This document shows, piece after piece, positions 1 through 22,402 of a stretch of 25,970 nucleotides of DNA. Both the position numbers and the translations under genes were made by a program. Every line of letters starts with the position of its first letter. Position 1 is the stretch's first letter. The notes beneath the pieces were generated by a model. It ran no database searches, was not told the origin of the DNA, and saw only the letters and a program-made list of their open reading frames with translations. This DNA is from a virus: positions 1 to 25,970 of the IMG/VR virus record IMGVR_UViG_3300045820_000006; one strand, given 5' to 3'.

Positions 1-832
1 TTCCGACCGTGGTGCCTGGGCTAAAACTGTAGCCATCGTTCATCAGAATTGACGAGCTCGCCATGTAGTAGACGGTCGTCGATGGGTTGTACTGCACGCC
101 GCTCCCGCCGCCGCCCGTCGAGCTGATCGTCACTGGACCCGTGCCGCCGCTCGGTGAGATGGTCACGTTCGTGCCGGCAATGATCTGGGAGACGCCGCCC
201 AGGTTCGCCAGCGCCCCTGCCGCTGTGGTTGCGCCCGTGCCGCCATTAGCAACGCTTACTGGTGTAGGAATTTCACTAGGCGAGCAACCCCAAAAGCTAC
301 CTGAGTATACTCGATAACAAGAGCTGTTTACATTATAGTAGACACTTCCTGGAGTAAGCTGAAGTACCGCTTCTATATCAGCGTAGCCATAATTTCCAAT
401 AGTAGCTGGAAATCTTGGCGCTGGGATAGTGGCATCAACTAAAGAAGTAATATTCTGTGAAACTCCAGTAGTTATCGTAGTCACTATACCACACTTCGAA
501 GTAGAAAGTGGGCATACAGTAAACTGCCACTGACTTCCAGAAGGACAGACTTGATTATTATCATACGTTGTAACAGTAAATGCACCTGTTCCATCGAGAG
601 TTAGCGGTCCCTGAGATAGAACTGCTGGATTGAGCGCTCCGCTACCATTACAGAGTTTGTAAGCACTCAAGCTAGGATTCGCAGGATTCGGAACAAACTG
701 TACCGTCACTGTGCCATTTGTCCACAGTGTACTATCTGAGTCGGTAACAGTGGCTGATACAGTGGTAGTCTGCGCAAAAGAAATGCTACTCACAAAGAGT
801 AGCACCCCAAGAAAAACAAGATACTTTTTCAT
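1..832 (-). CDS. Tail-fibre-like protein with Sec signal peptide, partial (open at left edge)
   Basis: About 277 codons are present and the frame is still open at position 1. The protein starts MKKYLVFLGVLLFVSS and continues ISFA-Q, a clear Sec signal peptide: lysines, a hydrophobic core, and a likely cut after Ala20. A Thr/Ser/Asn-rich beta-type region with several Cys follows. Next comes a linker containing VANGGTGATTAAGALANLGG, the GGTGATTA-type motif common in phage tail fibres, and then Gly/Ser-rich beta sequence. I chose the ATG at 832 over the overlapping ATG at 836 because it gives the signal peptide and a proper spacing from the GGAGG that overlaps the stop of the upstream gene. A signal peptide is odd for a virion fibre, so it may be an exported or surface protein that shares fibre modules. 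GC content jumps from about 44% to about 65% inside the gene near position 250. The role is inferred; the existence of the gene is firm. Confidence 0.75.
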   Translation of the reverse strand, partial: MKKYLVFLGVLLFVSSISFAQTTTVSATVTDSDSTLWTNGTVTVQFVPNPANPSLSAYKLCNGSGALNPAVLSQGPLTLDGTGAFTVTTYDNNQVCPSGSQWQFTVCPLSTSKCGIVTTITTGVSQNITSLVDATIPAPRFPATIGNYGYADIEAVLQLTPGSVYYNVNSSCYRVYSGSFWGCSPSEIPTPVSVANGGTGATTAAGALANLGGVSQIIAGTNVTISPSGGTGPVTISSTGGGGSGVQYNPSTTVYYMASSSILMNDGYSFSPGTTVG

Positions 833-840
833 ACATCCTC

Positions 841-2151
841 CTAGAGCCAGCCGTTGGTTTCAAGAAATTGATAACGCTTGAGAGTTACTTTGTTGATATC
901 AGTACGATACTGCATGTTTGGGATGTTGATCTTACTGAGAGCTTTATCACACTGTGCCGCAGCCGCTTCAATGGTGTCTCCAATACCAATCGGAGCGCAG
1001 ACATAACCGTAATTGCCACTGGTAATAAGAGACTTCTTATCCTTAGAAAGTTTCACATCATACATATACGTATGTGTGAGTTGCTCAATGTCCTCTGGAT
1101 CAAGTCCCTCAATCGGAACATCCTTGGCTTTACTAATTCTTATCTCCGTAGGATAAGGTGGTATTGAGAGTGTGACCGACATTCCATATGGCGCTTTCCA
1201 CTTAATTTGCGGTATCTGAAAAGAGGCTACCCGTTGTAGCATTTCGCCAAAGCCAGGACCATACATCGCAGCTATTGTAGAGTCGGCAAGATAACCAAAT
1301 CGCGGCGTCCACTCTAGTCCATAAGCTGTATCTTCTGTGACAATGGTATTAAGATCAATCATACCGGTAAAATGATTCTCTTGTAAAAATGGAATAATCT
1401 TTTTCAGCCCTTCTCGATAGAGCTTAGACTCTTCAGAGATAGCAAAGACCAGATTACCAGAGCATCCAGTGTTCGGACCCTTACCTTCATTCATAAACTT
1501 CTTCTCTTCAAGAGTACAAGAGAGCATGTAGAAGTCTGTGCCATTAAAATAACCCATCACTGATGCCTCAGTACCTTTGACAAATTCTTGTAAAATGAAT
1601 AGTTGATTCTTTGACAGCGCATACAATCTATCAATCACCTTAAGCATATCCGGCGCATCTTTAGCAACATACGTCAGTGCCTTATCATCATTCCCACCTG
1701 GACCCTCATAGGGTTTATAGACGTATCTCTTCCCTTCCTTATTTATATACGCCTTCCCCTCCGAAGCTGTAGCGAATTCCTGATACGGCGGCACCACAAT
1801 CTTGGCTTGCTCCATTGCTTCCAAGCCAAACTTCCTATCATCCTCCAAGGCTTCTTCAAATGAGCCGTCTCCTAATGTCGGCGCTTCTAATCTAGATGCG
1901 TCAGCCTGTTTTGGTTTGCCTGTTAGATCGAACAAGGATAAATCATATCCCTTATACGATGGATACCCGTATCCTCTGAGTGTTCGTCTATGATCCAGCG
2001 ATAGCTTCTTAGGGGGCGGAATAAGCCCCCTAAGAACGTCTTCATAATACTCTGGCTTAGACAAAAAGTAGTCTACACTATGACCTTCCGCAAGGAGGCG
2101 TAGGATAAACCACGCGCCCATTCCACAATATGAAGACATTGCTATTTTCAT
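841..2151 (-). CDS. ATP-grasp enzyme resembling phosphoribosylamine-glycine ligase (PurD-like)
   Basis: The product has 436 residues. It opens with a Rossmann-like strand and glycine turn (KIAMSSYCGMGAW, residues 2-14). The ATP-grasp part shows YVYKPYEG (143-150, Lys146 as candidate ATP-binding lysine), FILQEFVKGTEASV (185-198) and GPNTG (225-229). The last two closely match the PurD signatures around its EEFLxGEEAS and GPNTGGMG motifs. The expected metal-binding ExNxR near the end of the domain reads LEWTPRFG (279-286), keeping Glu280 and Arg284 but with Thr in place of Asn. PurD joins 5-phosphoribosylamine and glycine with ATP in purine synthesis; whether this protein uses the same substrates is unknown. 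An upstream in-frame ATG (2214) exists, but the conserved start and a stop-to-start spacing of two bases after the preceding gene favour 2151. It lies between virion genes and the fibre gene, so it would be made late. Other options are a ligase for nucleotide, DNA or peptide modification. Confidence 0.8.
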   Translation of the reverse strand: MKIAMSSYCGMGAWFILRLLAEGHSVDYFLSKPEYYEDVLRGLIPPPKKLSLDHRRTLRGYGYPSYKGYDLSLFDLTGKPKQADASRLEAPTLGDGSFEEALEDDRKFGLEAMEQAKIVVPPYQEFATASEGKAYINKEGKRYVYKPYEGPGGNDDKALTYVAKDAPDMLKVIDRLYALSKNQLFILQEFVKGTEASVMGYFNGTDFYMLSCTLEEKKFMNEGKGPNTGCSGNLVFAISEESKLYREGLKKIIPFLQENHFTGMIDLNTIVTEDTAYGLEWTPRFGYLADSTIAAMYGPGFGEMLQRVASFQIPQIKWKAPYGMSVTLSIPPYPTEIRISKAKDVPIEGLDPEDIEQLTHTYMYDVKLSKDKKSLITSGNYGYVCAPIGIGDTIEAAAAQCDKALSKINIPNMQYRTDINKVTLKRYQFLETNGWL

Positions 2152-2153
2152 CA

Positions 2154-2540
2154 CTAACTCGCTTTCATCTTTTGTTGATTGTTGAATGCGCCAGGACGTT
2201 TTTCTTTCAACCATTCTACATAGTTTGCTGGGAGTTCTGAAAAAGTATAAACAAGATTATCAATCTTGAATAAGTCCTTGTCAAAACTATACCAGAAATT
2301 TCGTTTAAGTTTTTCAAAGCCATCTTTTGAGAAGACTCCTAGATAGTCAACCTTGCAATACCATCTAGGACATTGCTTGCTAAATTCTCCAAAAGCTTCC
2401 TTGCGACGGATACGTAGCATGACTTTGAATCTCCAGAGATGTAACCAAAGCTGGAATTTAGTGTACCCATCAGAGTTCCAGTTAATTCCCTGATGAGTAC
2501 ACTGATTTTCTAGCTTTCTGTGAATGAATGGTACTTGCAT
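2154..2540 (-). CDS. Hypothetical protein, 128 residues
   Basis: I do not recognise this protein. It is basic and rich in aromatic residues (many Trp, Tyr and Phe), with Cys at 14, 57 and 62, and no signal peptide or membrane segment. It starts after a strong AAGGAG 7 bases before the ATG. Its TAG stop is two bases before the start of the ATP-grasp gene, so the two are probably translationally coupled and may work together. Base composition matches the neighbouring phage genes. It could be a small partner of the ATP-grasp enzyme or an unrelated late gene. Confidence 0.75.
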   Translation of the reverse strand: MQVPFIHRKLENQCTHQGINWNSDGYTKFQLWLHLWRFKVMLRIRRKEAFGEFSKQCPRWYCKVDYLGVFSKDGFEKLKRNFWYSFDKDLFKIDNLVYTFSELPANYVEWLKEKRPGAFNNQQKMKAS

Positions 2541-2559: not shown

Positions 2560-2718
2560 TTACTTGTTATTCTTTCCAGCGTGATCTGTTTTCTGGTTTT
2601 CATGTGGCTTCTTACCGCCACCACTGCCACAGCCTTTGGCTTGTGAACCACTGGCTTGCACACGTTCCTGCATTGCCCGTGCTTCTTTGAGTGAGAGTGC
2701 TGCACTTTGACCGCTCAT
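2560..2718 (-). CDS. Small Gly/Lys-rich protein, 52 residues
   Basis: A short gene with a very good ribosome binding site (AAGGAAGGAGG upstream of the ATG). Its ATG overlaps the TGA of the preceding 627-residue gene as ATGA, which is strong evidence that it is real. The first half is helical (SLKEARAMQERVQ). The second half is disordered and polar: a GCGSGGGKK stretch followed by a His/Asn/Lys-rich tail, with a single Cys at residue 30. No domain is recognised. A virion-associated or DNA-binding small protein is possible. The leader-plus-flexible-tail layout beside an ATP-grasp gene also recalls peptide-modification precursors, but nothing shows that directly. Confidence 0.75.
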   Translation of the reverse strand: MSGQSAALSLKEARAMQERVQASGSQAKGCGSGGGKKPHENQKTDHAGKNNK

Positions 2719-4598
2719 GGATTCCTCCTTCCTTTGTAACTGAGATGCTTTCTAATTCTTGAAGGCTTAGAAGATTCTTCTTTTTGCTCCTTCAAGGTTG
2801 GAAAAAGTCTGTGAGAGAGTGGTTTGCCTATGACTGGAATCATTTGAGTGACATCTCTGCCAAGTGGATTTATTGACTTTCCTCTCAGTGCATTCGCAGC
2901 ATCGCTTATATCTGTGATGCCCATTCCAATCATAGGACCGACAACAGCATTTGCAAGACGACTACCTTTGATAGCTTGGGTGTAGTTATAGTACGCACCC
3001 ATAGCACCAATGTGAGCAAGCATGTCAAAATAAGTGCCTGCAAAATTACCGAAAGAGTCAGGATGAGTAAGACTCTTGTAATCCTTTTGCATTGATGCTT
3101 GCGCTTGCTGTAGTGAGCCTGTTCGAGCAAAAAGTTCTAAACTCTTCAACATCGGTGCGACGTAGGGAAAAACAATACCAAGTGTGCCGACAAACTGTGC
3201 GATACCTTTAACATCACCAGCCTTAAACTGCTTCCGTAACTCTCGACCAATATATGTAGCCTCCGAAGATACAAAAGAGTGGTACATAAAAGCAGAACGC
3301 ATAAAGAAATTAGCATTTCCATACATAGACTGGTCGATCGTCTTATTAACAAAAAATCTGTTATTGACAAAATGATATACACCCTTCTGAAGTTGCCCTT
3401 CAGTAAGTTTTCCGCCTTGCTTTTGTACATCTGCTATGTCAATACCCATCTCAGCAAGTTCAGCAAGAGAACGCTTATCGCCTCTGAGTGCATTGGTCGC
3501 CCAGAACTGAGCAGAATGAAATCCTACAGCCGCCGCAGCAGAGAGCTGCTTCAAGCGCATATAGTTAAATCCCGGCTGATGAATTGTCTTTCTGATAATC
3601 TCCGCGGCAGTTGGCTGATTGGTCCACTGAGCTAACTTGCCGCTGCGAGCTAGAATTTCTGAATGTACAACGTCCCACTCAGTATTTGCCAGAATACCTG
3701 AAGCCTCTAGCGTCGAGTGCATTTCATCTTCATTCATCCGAAGTAGTGCTTTACCCACTGCCTGTAACGGTGCCGACGCACCAAGATGAAAATACTGTCC
3801 TATATGTGGTATCGCTACAAATGGAATCTGTACAAGCCTTAGCACTTCTTGTGCAGTACGCTCAGGATTAGATGCTGGTGTATAAGTAGGATCAACATTC
3901 AACTTAGGAATCTGCTTATCTTCTGAGAGTGCTCGGAACTTATTCACGGTATTAATAGACTGATTCATCTGAACTTTAGCAGAAGATTTCGTAACATCGC
4001 CGCCGCGTTCGTGGAAGGTACGAGTGTCCTTGAGTTCATTTGATACTATGTCAGCGATTCTGCGACCATTGAGTTGAACTCTAGGATCAGGATATTCTAG
4101 CATCGAAGCAATCAATGGAGTAACATTCTGCATCTTATCACCAACCGAGCCGTTCAAAGCGGTAAGTCGAGCTTGAGAACGATTCTTAATATCGAGTTCT
4201 TTTAATGTCAACCCAGCATTATCACTAGCTCCAGTCGTAGGATTTATACCACGTTGAATGATTCTATTTGTGACTTGTTGAATAGGATGCCCAGTTTTCA
4301 TAGCGTGAGCATGGAGATCAGCAACCGTTGTCTTATGAATGGGCAGCGCATTTCTTGTAACATCTGAACTCTGATGCCAGTCAAGAACAGCCTTAGAGTC
4401 TTTAGTACTCTCTCCCAACGCTACAGACCTTAATCTCTGATATTCTCCAAGCTGTGCTTTAACAGCTTTTCCCTCTGGGGATATATCAAGTTCCCACTCC
4501 TTGTTTCCTACGAGTGACAACAACTTAGAGCCAACGCCGCCTTCATGCTCTAAACTCTTTGCCCACATTTCTCCAAGAGGTGCTAATAGACCGCCCAT
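2715..4598 (-). CDS. Putative internal virion (ejection) protein, 627 residues
   Basis: A large, mostly alpha-helical protein with several moderately hydrophobic helices in its C-terminal half (around FVGTLGIVFPYVAPML, and MLAHIGAMGAYYNYTQ to the end). It has a basic, Lys/Arg-rich C terminus. No enzyme motif is seen. In short-tailed phages, long helical proteins encoded after the nozzle and adaptor genes are typically carried in the capsid and ejected with the DNA; I infer that role from position, size and composition. Its ATG overlaps the stop of the 857-residue gene as TAATG, with AAAGGA upstream, so the two are coupled. The two may together match one longer polyvalent protein in other phages. 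Confidence 0.6.
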   Translation of the reverse strand: MGGLLAPLGEMWAKSLEHEGGVGSKLLSLVGNKEWELDISPEGKAVKAQLGEYQRLRSVALGESTKDSKAVLDWHQSSDVTRNALPIHKTTVADLHAHAMKTGHPIQQVTNRIIQRGINPTTGASDNAGLTLKELDIKNRSQARLTALNGSVGDKMQNVTPLIASMLEYPDPRVQLNGRRIADIVSNELKDTRTFHERGGDVTKSSAKVQMNQSINTVNKFRALSEDKQIPKLNVDPTYTPASNPERTAQEVLRLVQIPFVAIPHIGQYFHLGASAPLQAVGKALLRMNEDEMHSTLEASGILANTEWDVVHSEILARSGKLAQWTNQPTAAEIIRKTIHQPGFNYMRLKQLSAAAAVGFHSAQFWATNALRGDKRSLAELAEMGIDIADVQKQGGKLTEGQLQKGVYHFVNNRFFVNKTIDQSMYGNANFFMRSAFMYHSFVSSEATYIGRELRKQFKAGDVKGIAQFVGTLGIVFPYVAPMLKSLELFARTGSLQQAQASMQKDYKSLTHPDSFGNFAGTYFDMLAHIGAMGAYYNYTQAIKGSRLANAVVGPMIGMGITDISDAANALRGKSINPLGRDVTQMIPVIGKPLSHRLFPTLKEQKEESSKPSRIRKHLSYKGRRNP

Positions 4599-7171
4599 TA
4601 GAATTGTATCCTTTCATAGTCGCCGGTCTGAGTTTGTAAGTCAGATATCATACTGTCAATATCTGAGATACTTTCTTGAGACCTCATGCTTTTTGGACCT
4701 TTGGCATATTCTTGCATACGAAGAGCACTCAGAGTTTTGTGTGCTGAAAGTGCTTGTCTCCGCGCCTCAGAATCAGCAGCGAACATATTCTTGAGATTGC
4801 GTTTCTCTTGTAAATGCTTCTCCTGCAAGAGCTCTTGTTGCCACTCAGTCGAGTTCCACATATCATCCTGAGTGCTACGGAAGATGTTAGATTCCTTTGG
4901 CCAGCGCCCAGAACCTAGGAAGTTATCCATGTGATTGTACATGGCCTTGGCATAGTACATGAGCTGAGGCTCTGAAGGCTTCCTGCCGCTCATAAACTTC
5001 TGCACTTTCATAGTATCAATGAGCCGCTGCTCAAGTTCTTTACCAAACTCACGTGGCATTAAGTGAGTATAATTGTACATAAAAGCAAGAAAGTTCGGAT
5101 TCTGAGTTCCTTCACGAGTATTCTGATTCTCAAAAAACACGCCAGCATCTTTTAGAGCTTTTGGATAAAAGTGATTAGAAAGATCATCTTTGAAATCCTC
5201 ATCACTCATATTCTCAAAGAACTGTGCGAGAGTTTTACCCTGACTCTTAGCAGCCGCCATGTGCTCACGAAGACGTACTTTGTAATCAGGTACCTTATCA
5301 TACCGTACCGAAGGTTGGCCAAAGCGATCGGTCTTGTATTCAGTACGCGTCTTGATTGCAGGAATGGCCTTATCCTTCAAAGCAATAGATGTAGCTTTCT
5401 TAACTGGATTCTGTGTCAGTCGTTTCTCTGCCTGCGCTGCCGCTCTAGCCTGATCCTTTGCCATCTTTTGCTGAGCCATCTTCTCTACTTGCTCTGGCTT
5501 TACCATCTTCGCAGCGGCAGGATCTTTAGCAAGTTCTGCCATTACTTTCGCTTTGTAGAATTCAAGCGTACGCTTTGTACCAGGAGTCGATGCTTCTTTA
5601 GCAATCTTTGTTGCTGCTTGTTCTTGGACTCCTTCTACGTGTGTGTTGAGAGAACTCCCAGCATCCATGATAAGCTGATTAAGTCTTGTAGAAAGAAACT
5701 TAAAATCCTCACTTCCAGCTTCGATAGAGCTAAGTTTCTTCTCGCCAAGCAATGAGCGAATAAAAGTTGCCGAAGCCAGTACCGGCGCATATTGGGCAGG
5801 GTCTTCATTGAGCATGTTCATCTCATGTTCTTTGATCGCCGCTTTGCTCATACCAGACTCTTCCATCTTAGTAATGTGATTAAGAGCTGCGACATAGATA
5901 GCTTGCTGTCCAGGTATACCAGCAACGATAAGATTGTTACCTACTTCCTTCTGATGATCCTCATATCTCTCTGCATCTGTAGCAGGACGTAGACCTTTCT
6001 GCGCCAACTCTAGTTTAGCAACGTGTCTCTCCACTGCATCCTTAGCTACACCTTGTACCACGTCACCAAGTTTCTTTTTTCCCATTCCAGCAACATCAAA
6101 CATGCCATGAAACACTGCATAGCCTAGTGCATCTTGCCATGCCTGATCTTTGTCCTCTTGTTTGCGAGTAGCTTTGCCATAGGCATAACCTTCTGCTCCT
6201 GCCATTAAATAACCAAATACTTGCTTTCCAGCAGGACTCTTCATAAGCTGCGCTGTTAGATTGCCACCTTTGACTACGCCAGTACCTTCTCCCATGGCAA
6301 CATACATCGGCAACTGTGCAGCTTGTTCTGCTACGAATGAGGTCGCATGGTTCAGCCAGCCATCATAATTTGGTAATGCCGCTGCCCAGAACTCATGCTC
6401 ATCTGTCTGACGTTGTGCGCCACGATTGACAGCTTCGGTTAACTTAGAATCATGCTTAACTGAAGCAATCTGATTGTGTAAATCTACTGCTTGTTCATGC
6501 CACGGCTTAGCTAAATGCGCTTGTCGCTGTGCATCAGGAAGTGCGCGTTCTTTTTTCTCATTTTGGTACAGTTGTACTGCATCATCTACAGCATTGCCAA
6601 CTGCATTATAAACATACTGTCCTGCTCTAGCAAGACTCGGCAATCCTTCATTCCATCCATGTGCAAGACTGTGCATGATGGAATTGTTGTAAGAGTCTTC
6701 GATGTTATAGTTCGTAGCTTCCTTGTATGCTTGCTTGAGCCACAACTCTTTACTCATCGGCGCAATCTTCATGCCGCCGTACATTGGAGCAATCATCTTG
6801 TCATAGTAGTGTGATGCGACAGTTTGTTTTTGATCTTCTGTGAAATGTGACAGCTCAGCATCATTAGCTATAGTCTTCCAACGGTGCAGAGAATTAGCTA
6901 AGCCATCGTAAGGATTAGTTAACTTATACGGATTGAGCTTCGGATTCTTCAATGCCTCAATCTTGTCATGCCGATTCATCGAGTCAATTGAAGCATACTT
7001 CTGCTTTAGCGCCGTTGCTCTAGTAGCTTGCTGCTGTGCCTCTTGTTGCCTCACGATTACATCATGAAGTGGGCTAGTAGTTTTCGTCGTCTTCGTCTGG
7101 GTCGGCGGCGGTGTCTGAAAGCCAGGTAGAGGCTGAGTTGAGACTGCTGCTGGTACCTGAGGTTGATCCAC
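4598..7171 (-). CDS. Putative large internal virion protein, 857 residues, GTG start
   Basis: The product is an alpha-helical giant. It opens with a Pro/Gln/Thr-rich disordered segment of about 35 residues, followed by repeated helical stretches. Two longer hydrophobic or Ala/Gly-rich parts lie in the middle (near AAALPNYDGWLNHATSFVAEQ and AGKQVFGYLMAGAEG). Further on is a highly charged Lys/Ala coiled-coil region (AEKRLTQ, KMAKDQARAAAQ). I see no lysozyme or transglycosylase motif. Two in-frame GTG codons are available. I prefer 7171, which sits 8 bases after GGAGG; the GTG at 7180 directly abuts that site. The start region overlaps the end of the preceding gene by 98 bases in another frame. 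By size, order and composition this is an ejection or internal core protein; the exact role is unknown. Confidence 0.65.
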   Translation of the reverse strand: MDQPQVPAAVSTQPLPGFQTPPPTQTKTTKTTSPLHDVIVRQQEAQQQATRATALKQKYASIDSMNRHDKIEALKNPKLNPYKLTNPYDGLANSLHRWKTIANDAELSHFTEDQKQTVASHYYDKMIAPMYGGMKIAPMSKELWLKQAYKEATNYNIEDSYNNSIMHSLAHGWNEGLPSLARAGQYVYNAVGNAVDDAVQLYQNEKKERALPDAQRQAHLAKPWHEQAVDLHNQIASVKHDSKLTEAVNRGAQRQTDEHEFWAAALPNYDGWLNHATSFVAEQAAQLPMYVAMGEGTGVVKGGNLTAQLMKSPAGKQVFGYLMAGAEGYAYGKATRKQEDKDQAWQDALGYAVFHGMFDVAGMGKKKLGDVVQGVAKDAVERHVAKLELAQKGLRPATDAERYEDHQKEVGNNLIVAGIPGQQAIYVAALNHITKMEESGMSKAAIKEHEMNMLNEDPAQYAPVLASATFIRSLLGEKKLSSIEAGSEDFKFLSTRLNQLIMDAGSSLNTHVEGVQEQAATKIAKEASTPGTKRTLEFYKAKVMAELAKDPAAAKMVKPEQVEKMAQQKMAKDQARAAAQAEKRLTQNPVKKATSIALKDKAIPAIKTRTEYKTDRFGQPSVRYDKVPDYKVRLREHMAAAKSQGKTLAQFFENMSDEDFKDDLSNHFYPKALKDAGVFFENQNTREGTQNPNFLAFMYNYTHLMPREFGKELEQRLIDTMKVQKFMSGRKPSEPQLMYYAKAMYNHMDNFLGSGRWPKESNIFRSTQDDMWNSTEWQQELLQEKHLQEKRNLKNMFAADSEARRQALSAHKTLSALRMQEYAKGPKSMRSQESISDIDSMISDLQTQTGDYERIQF

Positions 7172-8510
7172 TAGACGCACCTCCTTCCTTTACATCGGCC
7201 TTCTTAGAATACTCCTTCATAAGACTATCTGCTGCCTGACCAAACGTTGTCTGAGCTTGCTTAGCAGTCTCTAATTGCTGGTCAAGATTGGAAACTATCG
7301 AAGCATTATAATGTTTTTGCTCAGCTTGGGCTCTCTGAATCTGTAATTCAGATACAGTCTTAGCCAAAGAAGCTTTTGTTACCGCTGTCTTAGTCTGGAA
7401 TTCCTGATACGCTTTCAATTGTACTGCTGAGTCGGCGCCTTTTAACGACAACTTAGCTTTGAAAGTAGCGAGGTCTTTAGACCCTGTCGCTGCAATTTCC
7501 TTGAGTCGATAACCAAACTGTGTTTTCGCTAAGTCTTGTCGAGCATTTATCTGCTCGTGCATCCTATCCCAAGCATCTTGACTCTTGAAAAGGCTAACCG
7601 CGTCAGCATGATCTTCGCGGCGCTGCTCAAGAGAAGCTGTATTATTAGCACGTACCTGAGCACTTAAGAGTGGCATCAATGCCTTCGTCGCCGCAGCATT
7701 AGCTTTCTGCGCTTCCATGTATGCCGCATACTGCGCTTGTGCCATCTGATTTGGTGCCATAGTCTGAGGTTGTGACTTAGCAAACGCCGTACCAAAATTC
7801 TGCGCGCCTTGCTGATTAGCTTGCTGTTGATGCTGTTGCTGTGCTTGCTTAGCAAGTTGCTTCTTCTCTTGCATGGTCTTAGCGTTTTGAATGGCTTTCT
7901 TCACTGCGTCATGTTCTTCGGTCTTGTTCTCAGAGGGATCGATATAATTGATATTGAGTCCCTTTGCAAGAGCCTTACGTAGTTTAGGATCAGAGGTAAT
8001 ACCATCTCGCACAGCGGTATTCTTAGTAATAAGCTCTTGTGCTTTCGCCGCTGTTGCGTTATCACCAATAGCCGTAGCAGAATCATGTTGCTGTTGAGCT
8101 TCATCTATCGCTGCCTGCGCCGTGAAGAGCTTCGTCGCCGCATCTGTGAGGTGCGCTTGTTTTTGCTGACGTTCCGCCGCGACTGCCTTACTAATAACAT
8201 TCCCAGCAGAAGTCAAAAGATTTGCTATCCCTTGACCCTTAGCAGCTTTCGCACCTACCATTTGTCTATGATCAAGAGGTTGCTCCGATGCTGAATTAGT
8301 TGGACGAAGCATAGAGGAAGGAATTTGTCCTACATGCTGTCCAGAGACAGGAGTAATAGCTTGTCGCATTAGATTCTGTTGCGTAGCAGTATCACCCTGA
8401 ATTTGTTTGAGCAACCCTCCAACGTCAAGTCCTCCCCCACCTGTAGAAGCAGGTACGGTAGGAGTCTCTGCTTCAGGCCACGCTAGCGTATTACCTTCAA
8501 CTTCACTCAT
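7074..8510 (-). CDS. Putative internal virion protein, Gln/Ala-rich coiled coil, 478 residues
   Basis: The start at 8510 follows AAGGAG, which overlaps the stop of the preceding gene; an upstream in-frame ATG (8594) would run into that gene and is unlikely. The N terminus is acidic and Pro-rich. The central part is Ala/Gln-rich helix with long heptad-like runs, including a QAQQQHQQQANQQ segment. The C terminus is a Ser/Gly/Thr-rich tail ending in acidic DPDEDDENY. It could be an internal core or ejection protein, or a tape-measure-like rod. No enzymatic motif was found. The last 98 bases are shared with the next gene in a different frame. Confidence 0.6.
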   Translation of the reverse strand: MSEVEGNTLAWPEAETPTVPASTGGGGLDVGGLLKQIQGDTATQQNLMRQAITPVSGQHVGQIPSSMLRPTNSASEQPLDHRQMVGAKAAKGQGIANLLTSAGNVISKAVAAERQQKQAHLTDAATKLFTAQAAIDEAQQQHDSATAIGDNATAAKAQELITKNTAVRDGITSDPKLRKALAKGLNINYIDPSENKTEEHDAVKKAIQNAKTMQEKKQLAKQAQQQHQQQANQQGAQNFGTAFAKSQPQTMAPNQMAQAQYAAYMEAQKANAAATKALMPLLSAQVRANNTASLEQRREDHADAVSLFKSQDAWDRMHEQINARQDLAKTQFGYRLKEIAATGSKDLATFKAKLSLKGADSAVQLKAYQEFQTKTAVTKASLAKTVSELQIQRAQAEQKHYNASIVSNLDQQLETAKQAQTTFGQAADSLMKEYSKKADVKEGGASSGSTSGTSSSLNSASTWLSDTAADPDEDDENY

Positions 8511-14619: not shown

Positions 14620-15579
14620 CTACGGTCCCTGCGTGCCCCACACTCCCTGCCACCGCGGGCACCAAGCAGCAACGCGCATCCTCGTTTTCTGCTTGATAGC
14701 ATCCGTATCGAAGTCGTCGTCAAAATCTGTCGTCGGCGCCTCACGATTAATGACTTGGAGCGCATGGTCTGACTTCTGTGCCACAAGGAACCACGCACTA
14801 GGAGAGTTGAGCCAAGGAACTTCGAGATTCTTGTAGTCTTCAGGCAACAGAGAATTGATAGTGTTATCCCCTGTATAAGGCTTACCCGGAGAACCAAGAA
14901 TCTCACGAACCAGGAACCGAAGTTCTGGGGGAGTAATGAGATTTTCCCAACGAAGCCGAATCGGGAAGCCCATGTTATCCACCATGCGAGCAGCGTGATT
15001 AGTAGCAAGTTGAAGACCTGCTACCGAGAAGTCCACATCTACCGCAGGACGGTTAGGATAGGTACCGGGTGCTGAAATAACTCCAGCTAGACCAGGACCA
15101 ATTTGTGTAGCCTGTGCACCACCAAGCAGAGCGTGGGCGTTATAGAAAAGAGGATTACCATCAAAGGTTGTGACCTGTGAGGTAAAACCTTGATTGAACA
15201 CATTCCACGCAATCATCTCTTTGGTAAACGCCGCCGACCGTGCCAGCAACGTCGGACCTTTCTTACCAACAAGTCCGTACTTGTCATCATCGTATAGTTC
15301 CTTAGAGGTTCTAATTCCAAGGGAGTATGTCAGTGGCTCAACCCTCTTAGAAGCACCCTGCTTCATTTCTGTATAAGAGGTAGAGACATTTTCAGGCTTC
15401 TCAAGTAACACTGAGATACCTGCCATTTCCAACTCTTGTTCATACTCAGAATCCGAATCTACTTCATGGAACACCTTCGGATAATCTGACGCTTTGAGCT
15501 GGCTATCGAGGCAGTCGAAGTAAATCTTCTTAAGCCCCGGCTGCATTAACTGTGCAAATTTTGCTCTAACTTGAGGCAT
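14620..15579 (-). CDS. Major capsid protein, 319 residues (Mu gpT-like type)
   Basis: The sequence starts MPQVRAKFAQLMQPGLKKIY. An acidic helical arm near residues 40-52 (DSDSEYEQELEMAG) follows, and then a body with TTFDGNPLFYNAH (137-149). The DGxPLF-S/N-x-H signature is characteristic of Mu gpT-type and related HK97-fold capsid proteins. The later segments RWENLITPPELRFLVREILGS and a C-terminal beta domain fit the same fold. The length is typical for the family. Its ribosome binding site is AAGGAG seven bases before the ATG. Flanking genes (probable decoration protein upstream, zinc ribbon and small structural genes downstream) and two stem-loops after the stop codon agree with an abundant capsid subunit. 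Confidence 0.85.
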   Translation of the reverse strand: MPQVRAKFAQLMQPGLKKIYFDCLDSQLKASDYPKVFHEVDSDSEYEQELEMAGISVLLEKPENVSTSYTEMKQGASKRVEPLTYSLGIRTSKELYDDDKYGLVGKKGPTLLARSAAFTKEMIAWNVFNQGFTSQVTTFDGNPLFYNAHALLGGAQATQIGPGLAGVISAPGTYPNRPAVDVDFSVAGLQLATNHAARMVDNMGFPIRLRWENLITPPELRFLVREILGSPGKPYTGDNTINSLLPEDYKNLEVPWLNSPSAWFLVAQKSDHALQVINREAPTTDFDDDFDTDAIKQKTRMRVAAWCPRWQGVWGTQGP

Positions 15580-17600: not shown

Positions 17601-17917
17601 TAGATTTCACCTCCTTCTTGAGAGTGTTTCATTTTAAGTACACTTGCTTCTTGGTATTTTTGCTGCTCTTCAAGTGTTCTGAGTCGTTGTGGAAGTTCCA
17701 AGAAAACTTCCGTAACTCTTAACTGTGTACTAATTCTTACTGAGAGTGCTTTGATTTCTTCCGCCGACAGCTTAGTGGTGTCAAATCTTGCCCAGTTAAA
17801 TGCTTCCCTCTGAAGATTCTTGAGCATTTCCACTACCGGCTGGAACTCCTCCTTGAGCCATAGCTCCTGAAGGGACACTCGATACGGTATTAGATCCTCG
17901 ATTTTGTTGATTTCCAT
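17600..17917 (-). CDS. Small helical protein overprinted on the portal C-terminus, 105 residues
   Basis: I chose the ATG at 17917 because a Shine-Dalgarno repeat (GCAGGAGCAGGAGCAGG) ends six bases before it; an in-frame ATG at 18010 would need a Cys-rich basic leader with no binding site. The first 122 bases overlap the end of the portal gene in another frame. The protein is helical, with EFQPVVEMLKNLQREAFNWARF followed by a second helix pair ending in LEEQQKYQEASVLKMK. It may be a small portal- or scaffold-associated assembly factor. The stop is TAATG-coupled to the scaffold gene. Confidence 0.7.
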   Translation of the reverse strand: MEINKIEDLIPYRVSLQELWLKEEFQPVVEMLKNLQREAFNWARFDTTKLSAEEIKALSVRISTQLRVTEVFLELPQRLRTLEEQQKYQEASVLKMKHSQEGGEI

Positions 17918-19775
17918 TGCCTGCTCCTGCTCCTGCTTGTGCCTGCATTTGCTGCATAGCGGTTTCAATAATCTGTGACACGTCAGGAAGCAACGCATCA
18001 GGATTATCACGGTTAAAGTTACGCGCCAAGGTCATAGCAGAGACTCTTGTCGCAAGAAGCATATCCAGATAATACTTCTTCAAATCTGGCGGTATGCCTT
18101 CAGAATTGATCGCTTGGATAATCTGTGCTTGACTCTGATAGAAGCGATCAAGCCTATCCGAGATGAGAATGTCATTTTGCTTTTCGAGTTCTTTGTTAGC
18201 AGATGCCGATGCTGGACGAAGACGCAGTCCTAGTGTGCCATCACGATAGAGATCTAACGCCTTCTTCAGTTTATCTGCATCTCTGCCATACTTCTTAAGC
18301 TTCTCACCAATACCAAAGTTTGAGTACATTGTGAGAAACTTGCATCCTAACTTCACATGTGCCGAGCGCATGTCACCGGTACGAAGGTTGTTGCGATTAT
18401 TCTGCTGCGCCATGACCATTGAAGTTCCAGCGGCACTGTAGATACCGCGCTTCTGATTTACAATCCCACCACCAGTACCACCAGAAGCGGGATCAACTCC
18501 AGTACGTTCCTTGGCTATTGCCATATGAAATTGATCTGGCCCATCGCTATAACCTACATCAGCGCCGGCCTTAATGTGCTCGATCTCATCTTTACGTCCC
18601 GGCAATACAACGCCAGGAAACACATCCAGTATAGACCCAAGCTTACATTCTGGGTCCGCACGCCATACTCCCAGCATTGCCATGTTACGATTGTTAGTGC
18701 GCCAGTTATTATTGTTCGATAATTCCTTTTGCACCATGTGAATCATCTCAGCAAAACCTGTACCAAGATAAGACTCATCATCGTAGGCTAATTTCATGTC
18801 CTGATATGGGAGCATGTTCTTAGGATAGTTATTAAAAGCTACCCACAAAATCTTTTCTGTACGCTTGTGGTATTTTGCCTGGAAAGAATACTCCTTGCCT
18901 TGGATCCAGTAAGTAAAGAATACTGTGTAGTTATACCACCGCGCTGCACCAGTATCTACGCCAGAAGAGTCAATAGAGAACTGCTCATTAATCTCCCGTT
19001 CCATCTCTGTTTCTTGAACAGCGTCAGGATTACTAAGCAATGATTCAATATCACTCTGTTTGTAGTAAGGACTCTTCGCTTTAAGATCCTGCACTGCCCA
19101 CATATCAAGAGAATCAATATGTCCAAAGAGCTTCATGTTCTCTAACTTCGGCACAGAAGGATCAAAGATAAAACGATTCAGCGGCAACAACTCAGGATGA
19201 GGACCATCGCGCTTGGTAATGATATGCTCTTCTGATTTGACTGGGCCATCTTCTTCTGAAGTACCGCCGCTCTTATACTCCATTACTACCTGTTGTTCAA
19301 ACTCATATGGCGTGTAGATGATTCCTGTGCCATACTTAATCGCACTGTGAAATGCGCTCTGCTCAACCCTGTATAGGTCTAACTCATCCGGCGCATATGC
19401 CATGTCCATCAAAAAGTTTTGTACAACCTGCTTGAGTTCTTCGCCGTCTTTTCCTGGTAGGCCGCCACTCATTGTAGCTGCCCAGAGCGGATCATACATA
19501 TAAATACCACCCATGATACGAGCCAACAACTCATCTGATGCTGTACCGATGATTGGGATTACTAAGTTCGCCGCGCCCGGCCATGGCCAATCGGCTTCTT
19601 TATTCTTTGGCCGTGCCTTGTACAAGCGCACATACTCTGGCAACTTCTCAGTTCTAAAAGTCTGCAACCGTCTATCGAGATGTGCAATCTTATCCTTGAT
19701 AAAATCACAAATCTCCCGATAGTTATCAGGTCCAATAAGTTCCGGCGTTACTTGCGTGGGTGGTTGATATGGCAT
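17796..19775 (-). CDS. Portal protein, 659 residues
   Basis: This long, mixed alpha/beta protein has the order expected of a portal. An N-terminal helical segment contains DKIAHLDRRLQTF, and WPWPGAANLVIPIIG follows at about residues 63-77. Next comes a wing region with YGTGIIYTPYEFE and a stretch around DPSVPKLENMKLFGHID. A core region follows with an AYDDESYLGTGFAEMIHMVQ helix, a Gly-rich loop near DPASGGTGGG, and a long helical crown. The last 50 residues are Gln/Gly/Ser-rich and disordered, and part of them is overprinted by the next gene. It forms the ring through which DNA enters and leaves the head. The ATG at 19775 overlaps the stop of the previous gene (TAATG). It lies downstream of large terminase as usual. 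Confidence 0.85.
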   Translation of the reverse strand: MPYQPPTQVTPELIGPDNYREICDFIKDKIAHLDRRLQTFRTEKLPEYVRLYKARPKNKEADWPWPGAANLVIPIIGTASDELLARIMGGIYMYDPLWAATMSGGLPGKDGEELKQVVQNFLMDMAYAPDELDLYRVEQSAFHSAIKYGTGIIYTPYEFEQQVVMEYKSGGTSEEDGPVKSEEHIITKRDGPHPELLPLNRFIFDPSVPKLENMKLFGHIDSLDMWAVQDLKAKSPYYKQSDIESLLSNPDAVQETEMEREINEQFSIDSSGVDTGAARWYNYTVFFTYWIQGKEYSFQAKYHKRTEKILWVAFNNYPKNMLPYQDMKLAYDDESYLGTGFAEMIHMVQKELSNNNNWRTNNRNMAMLGVWRADPECKLGSILDVFPGVVLPGRKDEIEHIKAGADVGYSDGPDQFHMAIAKERTGVDPASGGTGGGIVNQKRGIYSAAGTSMVMAQQNNRNNLRTGDMRSAHVKLGCKFLTMYSNFGIGEKLKKYGRDADKLKKALDLYRDGTLGLRLRPASASANKELEKQNDILISDRLDRFYQSQAQIIQAINSEGIPPDLKKYYLDMLLATRVSAMTLARNFNRDNPDALLPDVSQIIETAMQQMQAQAGAGAGNGNQQNRGSNTVSSVPSGAMAQGGVPAGSGNAQESSEGSI

Positions 19776-20530: not shown

Positions 20531-22402
20531 CTAGGCTGCTGCTGCCCTCATTCTTTGAGCAAACAGTGACTTCTGCTTTAACATAAAATCATCGACACGT
20601 TCTTGTGAAACTTTGTCAAATTTCCAAATCTGAGGACCATAAGAGAGAACATCAAGCAAGTCAATAAGACCTTTCCGTTGCCCATATTGTTCTACTTCTT
20701 CTTTGAACTCGGTACAATTATTCGTGTCTAACCAAAGTTCATGGCGCTCTACGATTGGAATGAAATTTTCAATTCGTTCTGCTTTAGCGTTTGCGTTCTG
20801 TGGAGTCTTGAGAGGAAGAAACTGGATACCAACAAGCTCTGGATGATCGTGCTTGTGTTCTTCGACGAAGTAGTTTAGATGATAAAGCAAATACTTCTGT
20901 GCTGCCACTGCTTCGACGTAGACAACACGAAGCTTCCATTTGACTGCGAGAAAAAATATCTGCTTAACAAAATCATCTATAGGACAAGCTTTGGCCCATT
21001 GATCGAGTAAGTAAACTCTGCGAGGATCACGCTCTACTCCAGTAACCGCAATAGCATGACGGCACCGACCGTCTTTGCCGGCTTCTTGGCCTAAGTGTGA
21101 ACCTCCGTGATTCGGATCAACTGTCATATAACGATCCAGATTGCGTGGAAAGACATCTTTTATTACATCGCCTTCTGCTACATGATGACGAATGACAATG
21201 CGATACTGCTGAGGATGAGAAGTCTCAAAGTATCTGCTAACTATCGAAGATTCCTTCGGCACCGCCAATGCACCAGTTACTTTTTCAAAGTTAAAATAGC
21301 GAAAATCCGCCATATTAAACTTGGCTTTAGAAGGATCAATAGGATAGTTAAGAAACTGACAAGAAAAATGATAGCTGCCAAGACGGCGCTTCCAGCGTAG
21401 TAACTTCTCCCGTGTGAAAGCCTCTGGGAATATTGGATCACCGAAAGGATGAAGAGAGCAACAACCACCCAGAGCGGAATGAGTAGTCCAACTAAAATAA
21501 GGCTCTTCCTGACGTATGTGCGAATTGAGGTCATCATGCGACCACCTGTTACCTACGACTATCTCGTCAAAGTCTCTACCGGGATTATCCGGGTCTGAAT
21601 CTGTAGCACCGACCAGGATTTGATGATAATCGATTGTATCGGCCATAACAATACTGGATTTTCTGGCTTCTCTTCCCACAAGATCATCTTGCACCACGAC
21701 GTTGTAATGACGTGATTGTAGGGCCGCGCCGACTCCGATAAAATCGAAAGTACCTTCTCCCTGTCCACGTCCAGCAGGAGTTCGTCTTTGATGAAGAGAT
21801 TCATTTGTCCACGTCTCCTTTTCAGTTGGAATTATTTCTGGAAATAGGTGACGGAAGAATGAATTGTTTTCGTAGTGGTTTGAGATTCGGATACCCAGTT
21901 TGATTGCGTTCTTGATAGTCTCGGACACCAAGAGGATGCGTATGTCTTGGCTGTGGGTTCGACGCATCCACTCAATGTAGAGATCAGAGTAACCAACTGA
22001 AGTAAAGAAATCTTCTTCCCGTTTGCCAAAAGGTAATGCTCTCCAAATCGAAAAGCACTCGCTGTAGACTGTACTTTTGAAATGGTCACGGGGAATCTCG
22101 ATTCCTTCCTTAAGGCCATCTTTCATTACAGTAAGACACATCTGATAATGAAGATTCTTTGCTTTGTCGGAGTTCTTAGAAAAGCGATTCTTGCCCATGA
22201 CAACGGTGCTGAAATAGTAAAGGTCCATCAAAGCATTAGCGCGAAAGACTTGCTTTTTCTCTGCGGCATTTTTACAAAGATCCGTGGGAATGAGATTGTA
22301 ACCAAGAATAGTAGAACGCGGCACGAAGGTATCCCCAGTCTCTCCTACTTCAAGAGTCCTGAGGATATCTCGCACCGTTTGTTCTATTTCACGTTGGCTC
22401 AT
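20531..22402 (-). CDS. terL: Terminase large subunit, 623 residues
   Basis: This is the DNA-packaging motor: an ATPase that pumps DNA into the procapsid, plus a nuclease that cuts concatemers. The ATPase shows IPRDHFKST (103-111), which matches the terminase Walker A pattern (P-R-G-x-x-K-S/T) but with Asp at 106 and Phe at 108 in place of the usual glycines. Walker B is VVVQDD (235-240). The nuclease domain has TVDPNHGG (Asp429), VVYVEA (Glu497) and DLLDVLSY (Asp581/Asp584), the three acidic positions of the RNase H-like fold. The length is normal or slightly long. The ATG overlaps the stop of the preceding gene as ATGA. Confidence 0.9.
   Translation of the reverse strand: MSQREIEQTVRDILRTLEVGETGDTFVPRSTILGYNLIPTDLCKNAAEKKQVFRANALMDLYYFSTVVMGKNRFSKNSDKAKNLHYQMCLTVMKDGLKEGIEIPRDHFKSTVYSECFSIWRALPFGKREEDFFTSVGYSDLYIEWMRRTHSQDIRILLVSETIKNAIKLGIRISNHYENNSFFRHLFPEIIPTEKETWTNESLHQRRTPAGRGQGEGTFDFIGVGAALQSRHYNVVVQDDLVGREARKSSIVMADTIDYHQILVGATDSDPDNPGRDFDEIVVGNRWSHDDLNSHIRQEEPYFSWTTHSALGGCCSLHPFGDPIFPEAFTREKLLRWKRRLGSYHFSCQFLNYPIDPSKAKFNMADFRYFNFEKVTGALAVPKESSIVSRYFETSHPQQYRIVIRHHVAEGDVIKDVFPRNLDRYMTVDPNHGGSHLGQEAGKDGRCRHAIAVTGVERDPRRVYLLDQWAKACPIDDFVKQIFFLAVKWKLRVVYVEAVAAQKYLLYHLNYFVEEHKHDHPELVGIQFLPLKTPQNANAKAERIENFIPIVERHELWLDTNNCTEFKEEVEQYGQRKGLIDLLDVLSYGPQIWKFDKVSQERVDDFMLKQKSLFAQRMRAAAA

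Follow-up and report, generated by a model that had tools for sequence, protein, structure and literature searches.

A PurD-like ATP-grasp subfamily encoded among phage virion genes: probably an amide ligase and not a GAR synthetase

Described PurD and phage ATP-grasp enzymes and the ligase of the window

In PurD from A. aeolicus, ATP is bound at K103, K143, E185, E192 and K214, glycine at D212, R287 and E292, and magnesium at E100 and K214, and the way in which PRA binds to the enzyme is structurally unsolved (PMC8880213). ATP-grasp proteins have also been reported from phages, namely from the LUZ24-like phage UFV-P2 and, as R2K, from jumbo phages; the formation of amide or peptide bonds has been predicted for both, and neither was described as PurD-like (PMC3890496, PMC7824862). 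R2K represents a different ATP-grasp clade than the ligase analysed here, and the UFV-P2 protein (291 aa) is an early-region product whose gene has those of an amidoligase and a glutamine amidotransferase nearby, whereas our ligase is found among virion genes. A functional analogy exists with the NAGGN synthetase Ngg (PA3460), in which N-acylation is coupled to amide ligation, the resemblance being limited to the chemistry and to the partner domain. We found no description of the PurD-like family itself in the literature searched, outside which the amidoligase survey of Iyer et al. (2009) lies.

The window, i.e. the whole stretch of DNA that was analysed (a 25,970-base virus record), encodes on its minus strand (841..2151) a protein of 436 aa with an N domain, an ATP-grasp domain and a GARS_C domain. 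The reading frame is open from 2214, and the ATG at 2151 (MKIAMSS...) is the start in all close homologues. The protein had been called a PurD-like ATP-grasp enzyme in an earlier note, and the motifs quoted there were all found: ILQEFVKGTEAS (residues 186–197), GPNTG (225–229) and LEWTPRFG (279–286). Profile searches agree with this assignment (Pfam GARS_A: 1.9e-10; GARS_C: 3.7e-8, with 34.0 bits narrowly below the cut-off of 34.8; the NCBIfam PurD model TIGR00877: 1.5e-24), and the homology to PurD is, judging from these scores, far above chance. The TIGR00877 score of 86.6 bits lies below the curated equivalog cut-off of 288, as does that of the top-scoring family member (136.8 bits). PHROGs version 4 gave no match for the ligase of the window and a single weak match for one member of the family.

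The predicted structure of the ligase (AlphaFold2, 38 sequences; pLDDT 91.9, pTM 0.91) was compared with known structures using Foldseek and VIA-align 2. PurD structures rank first (Z 30–35 over 380–393 residues, rmsd ~3–4), followed by PurK, biotin carboxylase, PurT and PylC (Z 23–25), which share the common superfamily fold but score about 10 Z units under PurD; the sequence profile of the ligase matches PurD only. According to the model, the ligase is PurD-like in fold throughout (residues 1–429), N and C domains included, and exhibits the full PurD architecture in the same domain order, together with the ATP-site residues, the carboxylate-binding Arg and the TG loop. A fold search among viral models returned only weak and generic ATP-grasp matches.

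Active site and relationship to PurD

The active site was mapped by aligning 41 family representatives with 32 PurD sequences. E100, K143, E192, K214 and R287 of PurD are retained (E103, K146, E195, K217 and R284 in the ligase), and K103, E185 and D212 are conservatively replaced by R106, Q188 and E215. Lost from the family are N285, which became T282, and E292, which became Ala, Leu or Thr (41/41 family members vs. 32/32 PurD sequences with the original residues). Of the FGDPE stretch that follows ExNxR in PurD, the DPE is missing as well, 41/41 family sequences exhibiting ExTxR without it. Both the GGREH loop (GGREHA) and the DPE motif are present in 32/32 PurD sequences and in 0/41 family members, where it should be noted that 30 of the 32 PurD sequences were picked by the GGREH motif, so that this column, as opposed to the others, is partly selected. 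Because the PRA-bound structure of PurD is unsolved, the loss of GGREH counts as indirect evidence. The Tyr of the PurD G-x-x-Y motif is substituted by Asp266 in 40 of the 41 members, and Asn268 stands where PurD has Gly. Asp266 is a metal ligand predicted from the alignment; it occupies what we take to be the position at which biotin carboxylase and other enzymes of the superfamily have an acidic metal ligand.

The earlier note had drawn attention to Thr in the place of Asn in the metal-binding motif, and this change turned out to be real and family-wide: among 239 viral and cellular sequences searched, 235 could be scored by pattern and 234 of them have Thr. The sole exception (L078) is a mis-hit of the pattern, its actual motif being LEWTSRFG; of the sequences missed by the pattern, two read EPTCR and two further unmatched ones stay outside the count. 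The protein combines the ATP-grasp fold with the ATP-binding Lys and the acidic metal ligands of the superfamily, and Lys146, Glu195, Lys217, Glu280 and Arg284 are invariant in the phage and cellular branches alike, with Asp266 nearly so. Loss of the ATP-binding lysine and glutamates, which would have spoken against enzymatic activity, was looked for among the relatives, and both are kept. This pattern of conservation suggests that ATP binding and carboxylate activation are kept, that recognition of the glycine amine is gone, and that recognition of PRA is probably gone as well.

Phylogenetic analysis (18 PurD, 36 phage and 12 cellular sequences) separated PurD from the family on a branch with 100/100 support and a length of 1.69, with all members on one side, so the homologues do not nest inside true PurD, an outcome that the earlier note had considered. 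The family comprises three well-supported groups, i.e. phages of the window type, phages of the MW202796 type, and the cellular branch; the tree position of three long rows (L094, L128 and L078) is unsure.

Distribution and genomic context

Scans of IMG/VR yielded 12 close loci and, when the MW202796 protein served as the query, 49 loci. A further scan, with an alignment as the query, gave 348 confirmed matches (best 80 of 348 retained), and one that used the cellular branch yielded 179 (best 80 of 179 retained), which may overlap with the earlier ones. Members of the family are frequent in environmental viromes, as indicated by the at least 348 and at least 179 confirmed matches of these two scans. 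Among catalogued phages it is present in 1 of 50,697 records, namely MW202796, a metagenomic circular genome of 43.8 kb in which the family gene is unannotated, and a megablast search with the first 6 kb of the window against the catalogued phages gave no match. Other catalogued tblastn matches (Listeria, Staphylococcus and faecal 'phage' contigs) mostly resemble true bacterial PurD and were all set aside; OR846843, OR848135, MT837619 and similar entries are PurD-matching contigs without annotation that bear the label of a Listeria, Enterococcus or faecal phage. The two such records that were inspected, L064 and L065, display ExN and GGREH, the ordinary motifs of bacterial PurD, and look like host contamination. 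One viral member (L309:6028-7629, 533 aa) has a C-terminal extension with the sequence DLDGTLANY, which by eye resembles HAD phosphatases.

The minus-strand gene order in the window is terminase, portal, capsid, several uncharacterized large proteins, ligase and a fibre-like gene. The terminase large subunit (20531..22402), the portal or head-tail connector (17796..19775) and the major capsid protein (14620..15579) provide the context for two large ORFs downstream of them, of 860 aa (family 7; 4598..7180, without a Pfam match) and 627 aa (family 8; 2715..4598), regarded as ejection-type by position in the former case and by position and size only in the latter. The placement of the ligase between ejection-type proteins and a fibre-like gene, as claimed previously, is thus confirmed, with the added detail that an ORF of 128 aa (2154..2540, minus strand, without a Pfam or PHROGs match), and possibly also one of 52 aa, separates it from the last large ORF. 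The TAG of the 128-aa ORF precedes the ATG of the ligase by two bases, which suggests translational coupling. The region had also been called a late operon, which it would be by gene order. The fibre-like gene (2..832, minus strand) is truncated by the end of the window, matches a PHROGs tail fibre weakly and is preceded by a good ribosome-binding site (GGAGG). The N-terminus of its product looks like a Sec signal peptide (MKKYLVFLGVLLFVSSISFAQ), which is odd for a phage fibre, and the same signal-peptide-like start is seen in the relatives L007, L011, L067, L069, L072 and L122.

Within the window group, 17 loci with family 8 were found. The ligase is the next gene downstream in 16 of them, and in the remaining one (L196) the contig ends at that point and carries the ligase at its other end (L069), which brings the count to 17/17. 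A same-strand ORF of at least 450 aa directly precedes the ligase in 83 of the 98 phage loci with enough flanking sequence (a count that includes near-copies and not only independent events), compared with a background of 165/770 (21%) for other genes in these loci; the median gap between the two is -3 bases. In 45 of 72 loci, at least one member of a set of eight virion-linked families, such as TerL, portal, capsid or tape measure, occurs within five genes of the ligase. In unrelated viral groups the ligase is flanked by TerL and a portal-sized protein or by portal and capsid, or it follows a tape-measure or transglycosylase protein, and some viral loci show other contexts. The ligase is also more conserved than its neighbour, with 51–53% identity across relatives in which family 8 has 19–28%, and its dN/dS ratio is 0.05–0.08 (NG86; for the more distant pairs, dS approaches or exceeds saturation). 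It is, in short, a conserved gene among virion genes, although such late placement may simply mirror the timing of expression.

Chromosomal relatives were detected in 26 of 194 sampled genomes from the phylum of a Nanoarchaeota MAG, in 14 of 380 from the phylum of a Patescibacteria MAG, and in single Planctomycetota and Betaproteobacteria MAGs; this cellular branch is a sister group, present in CPR bacteria and DPANN archaea. In 10 of about 42 cellular loci (a raw count without a background rate), a GNAT-fold acyltransferase is adjacent in the same direction or fused, either of the Acetyltransf_1 type (L212, L220, L222, weakly L186, and L125 as a fusion) or of the Acetyltransf_6 type (L209, L215, L217, L219 and L233). 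The fusion is found in a Nanoarchaeota MAG (L125:7825-10949), where two family members stand in tandem and the second carries the GNAT domain. The pairing and fusion suggest a pathway of amide ligation and N-acylation, as in NAGGN synthesis. In another locus (L128:721-2986, on a contig binned as Chlamydiia) the family member adjoins a GNAT domain fused to a C39-type peptidase domain, and one CPR genome (L185, L240 and L248) possesses two tandem copies of the cellular-type ligase. A GNAT-family protein is encoded also in the tail region of MW202796-type phages (L013:15960-16367; L030 and L102), at the position that gp13 has in T7, judged by gene order. We considered whether this protein is the same partner and rejected the idea: the cellular GNAT profile does not match it, and it belongs to a different GNAT family (family 15), encoded at some distance from the ligase. 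No GNAT was recognized in the window.

Predicted reaction and possible acceptors

The earlier suggestion of a new ATP-grasp subfamily that acts on a substrate other than that of PurD is supported by the tree and the profile scores as well as by the active-site mapping, the structure and the gene context; the ligase is probably not a GAR synthetase. We consider it likely that the ligase is an active carboxylate-amine (amide-forming) ligase, whose acceptor amine is other than phosphoribosylamine, and among the roles offered previously, the predicted ligation of an amide or peptide fits best. In the predicted reaction, Mg-ATP would phosphorylate a carboxylate held by Arg284, with the metal bound by Asp266 and Glu280 and with Thr282 in the place of Asn, and the resulting acyl phosphate would be attacked by the amine. 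The GNAT-fold partners of the cellular branch, one of them fused, lend support to the amide chemistry. The most likely acceptor would be an amine on an amino acid, a peptide or a protein that is produced or altered at a late stage of infection; candidates are a component of the virion or envelope, or a small N-acylated peptide.

PurD-architecture enzymes mostly act on small molecules. Or perhaps the product is a small soluble metabolite (an N-acylated dipeptide, an osmolyte or a signal) that aids the late infected cell, which would require the same enzyme class and only another acceptor? We regard this as a possible, if tentative, reading: it agrees with the usual substrates of this architecture and with the GNAT domains paired with or fused to the cellular relatives, and Ngg offers a precedent, as it both N-acetylates and ligates (PMC8070244), but it does not account well for the gene standing among virion genes in unrelated phage groups, or for the lack of a matching GNAT partner beside the ligase in the window. 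A similarly tentative proposal is that the ligases of phages join amino acids or other acyl groups to proteins that are part of the virion or are ejected from it, as a post-translational modification in particle assembly or genome delivery.

Modification of phage DNA or nucleotides, e.g. by coupling an amino acid to a base through an amide bond, appears improbable, and no finding of the analysis speaks for it. Amino-acid-modified bases do occur in phages and ATP-grasp chemistry would permit such a reaction, but the gene accompanies virion and not replication genes, and MW202796 is annotated with a cytosine methyltransferase and no hypermodification pathway.

The making of a purine precursor, another role offered previously, has become unlikely, and we give very little credence to the ligase being a true PurD, i.e. 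an auxiliary metabolic gene that boosts purine synthesis for genome replication. It resembles PurD in its fold, in its domain order and at many ATP-site residues, and viral purD genes, as annotated there, have been listed as purine genes (PMC11097641, PMC12043954). On the other hand, the ligase reaches only 87 bits where the cut-off is 288, it falls into a separate clade, the glycine-site and GGREH residues are lost in all members, and the gene has a virion context with no purine genes nearby. PurM and PurN were found in 0/36 viral records each by profile scan (most of the records being linear and maybe incomplete), and PurF above the cut-off also in 0/36, the one PurF-like match (G652) scoring 38 bits against a cut-off of 350. 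Equally hard to credit is a catalytically dead derivative with a structural or scaffolding role, for which one could cite the lost metal-binding Asn of ExN and the fact that, in the window group, the ligase strictly accompanies ejection-type proteins, as a dead enzyme would not need Lys146, Glu195, Lys217, Glu280 and Arg284 to be invariant and Asp266 nearly so.

The match of the ligase to PurD profiles makes it easily recorded as a viral purine gene, a function against which the sequence evidence argues, and viral purD annotations of such genes deserve checking. Common in viromes, present in a single catalogued phage record and without a good PHROGs match, this large and so far unnamed family has escaped study. 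A second route to the substrate is provided by the cellular branch, whose members in CPR and DPANN genomes have the GNAT partners. Should it be true that virion proteins are modified, the phage members would represent an unrecognized step in particle assembly or genome delivery.
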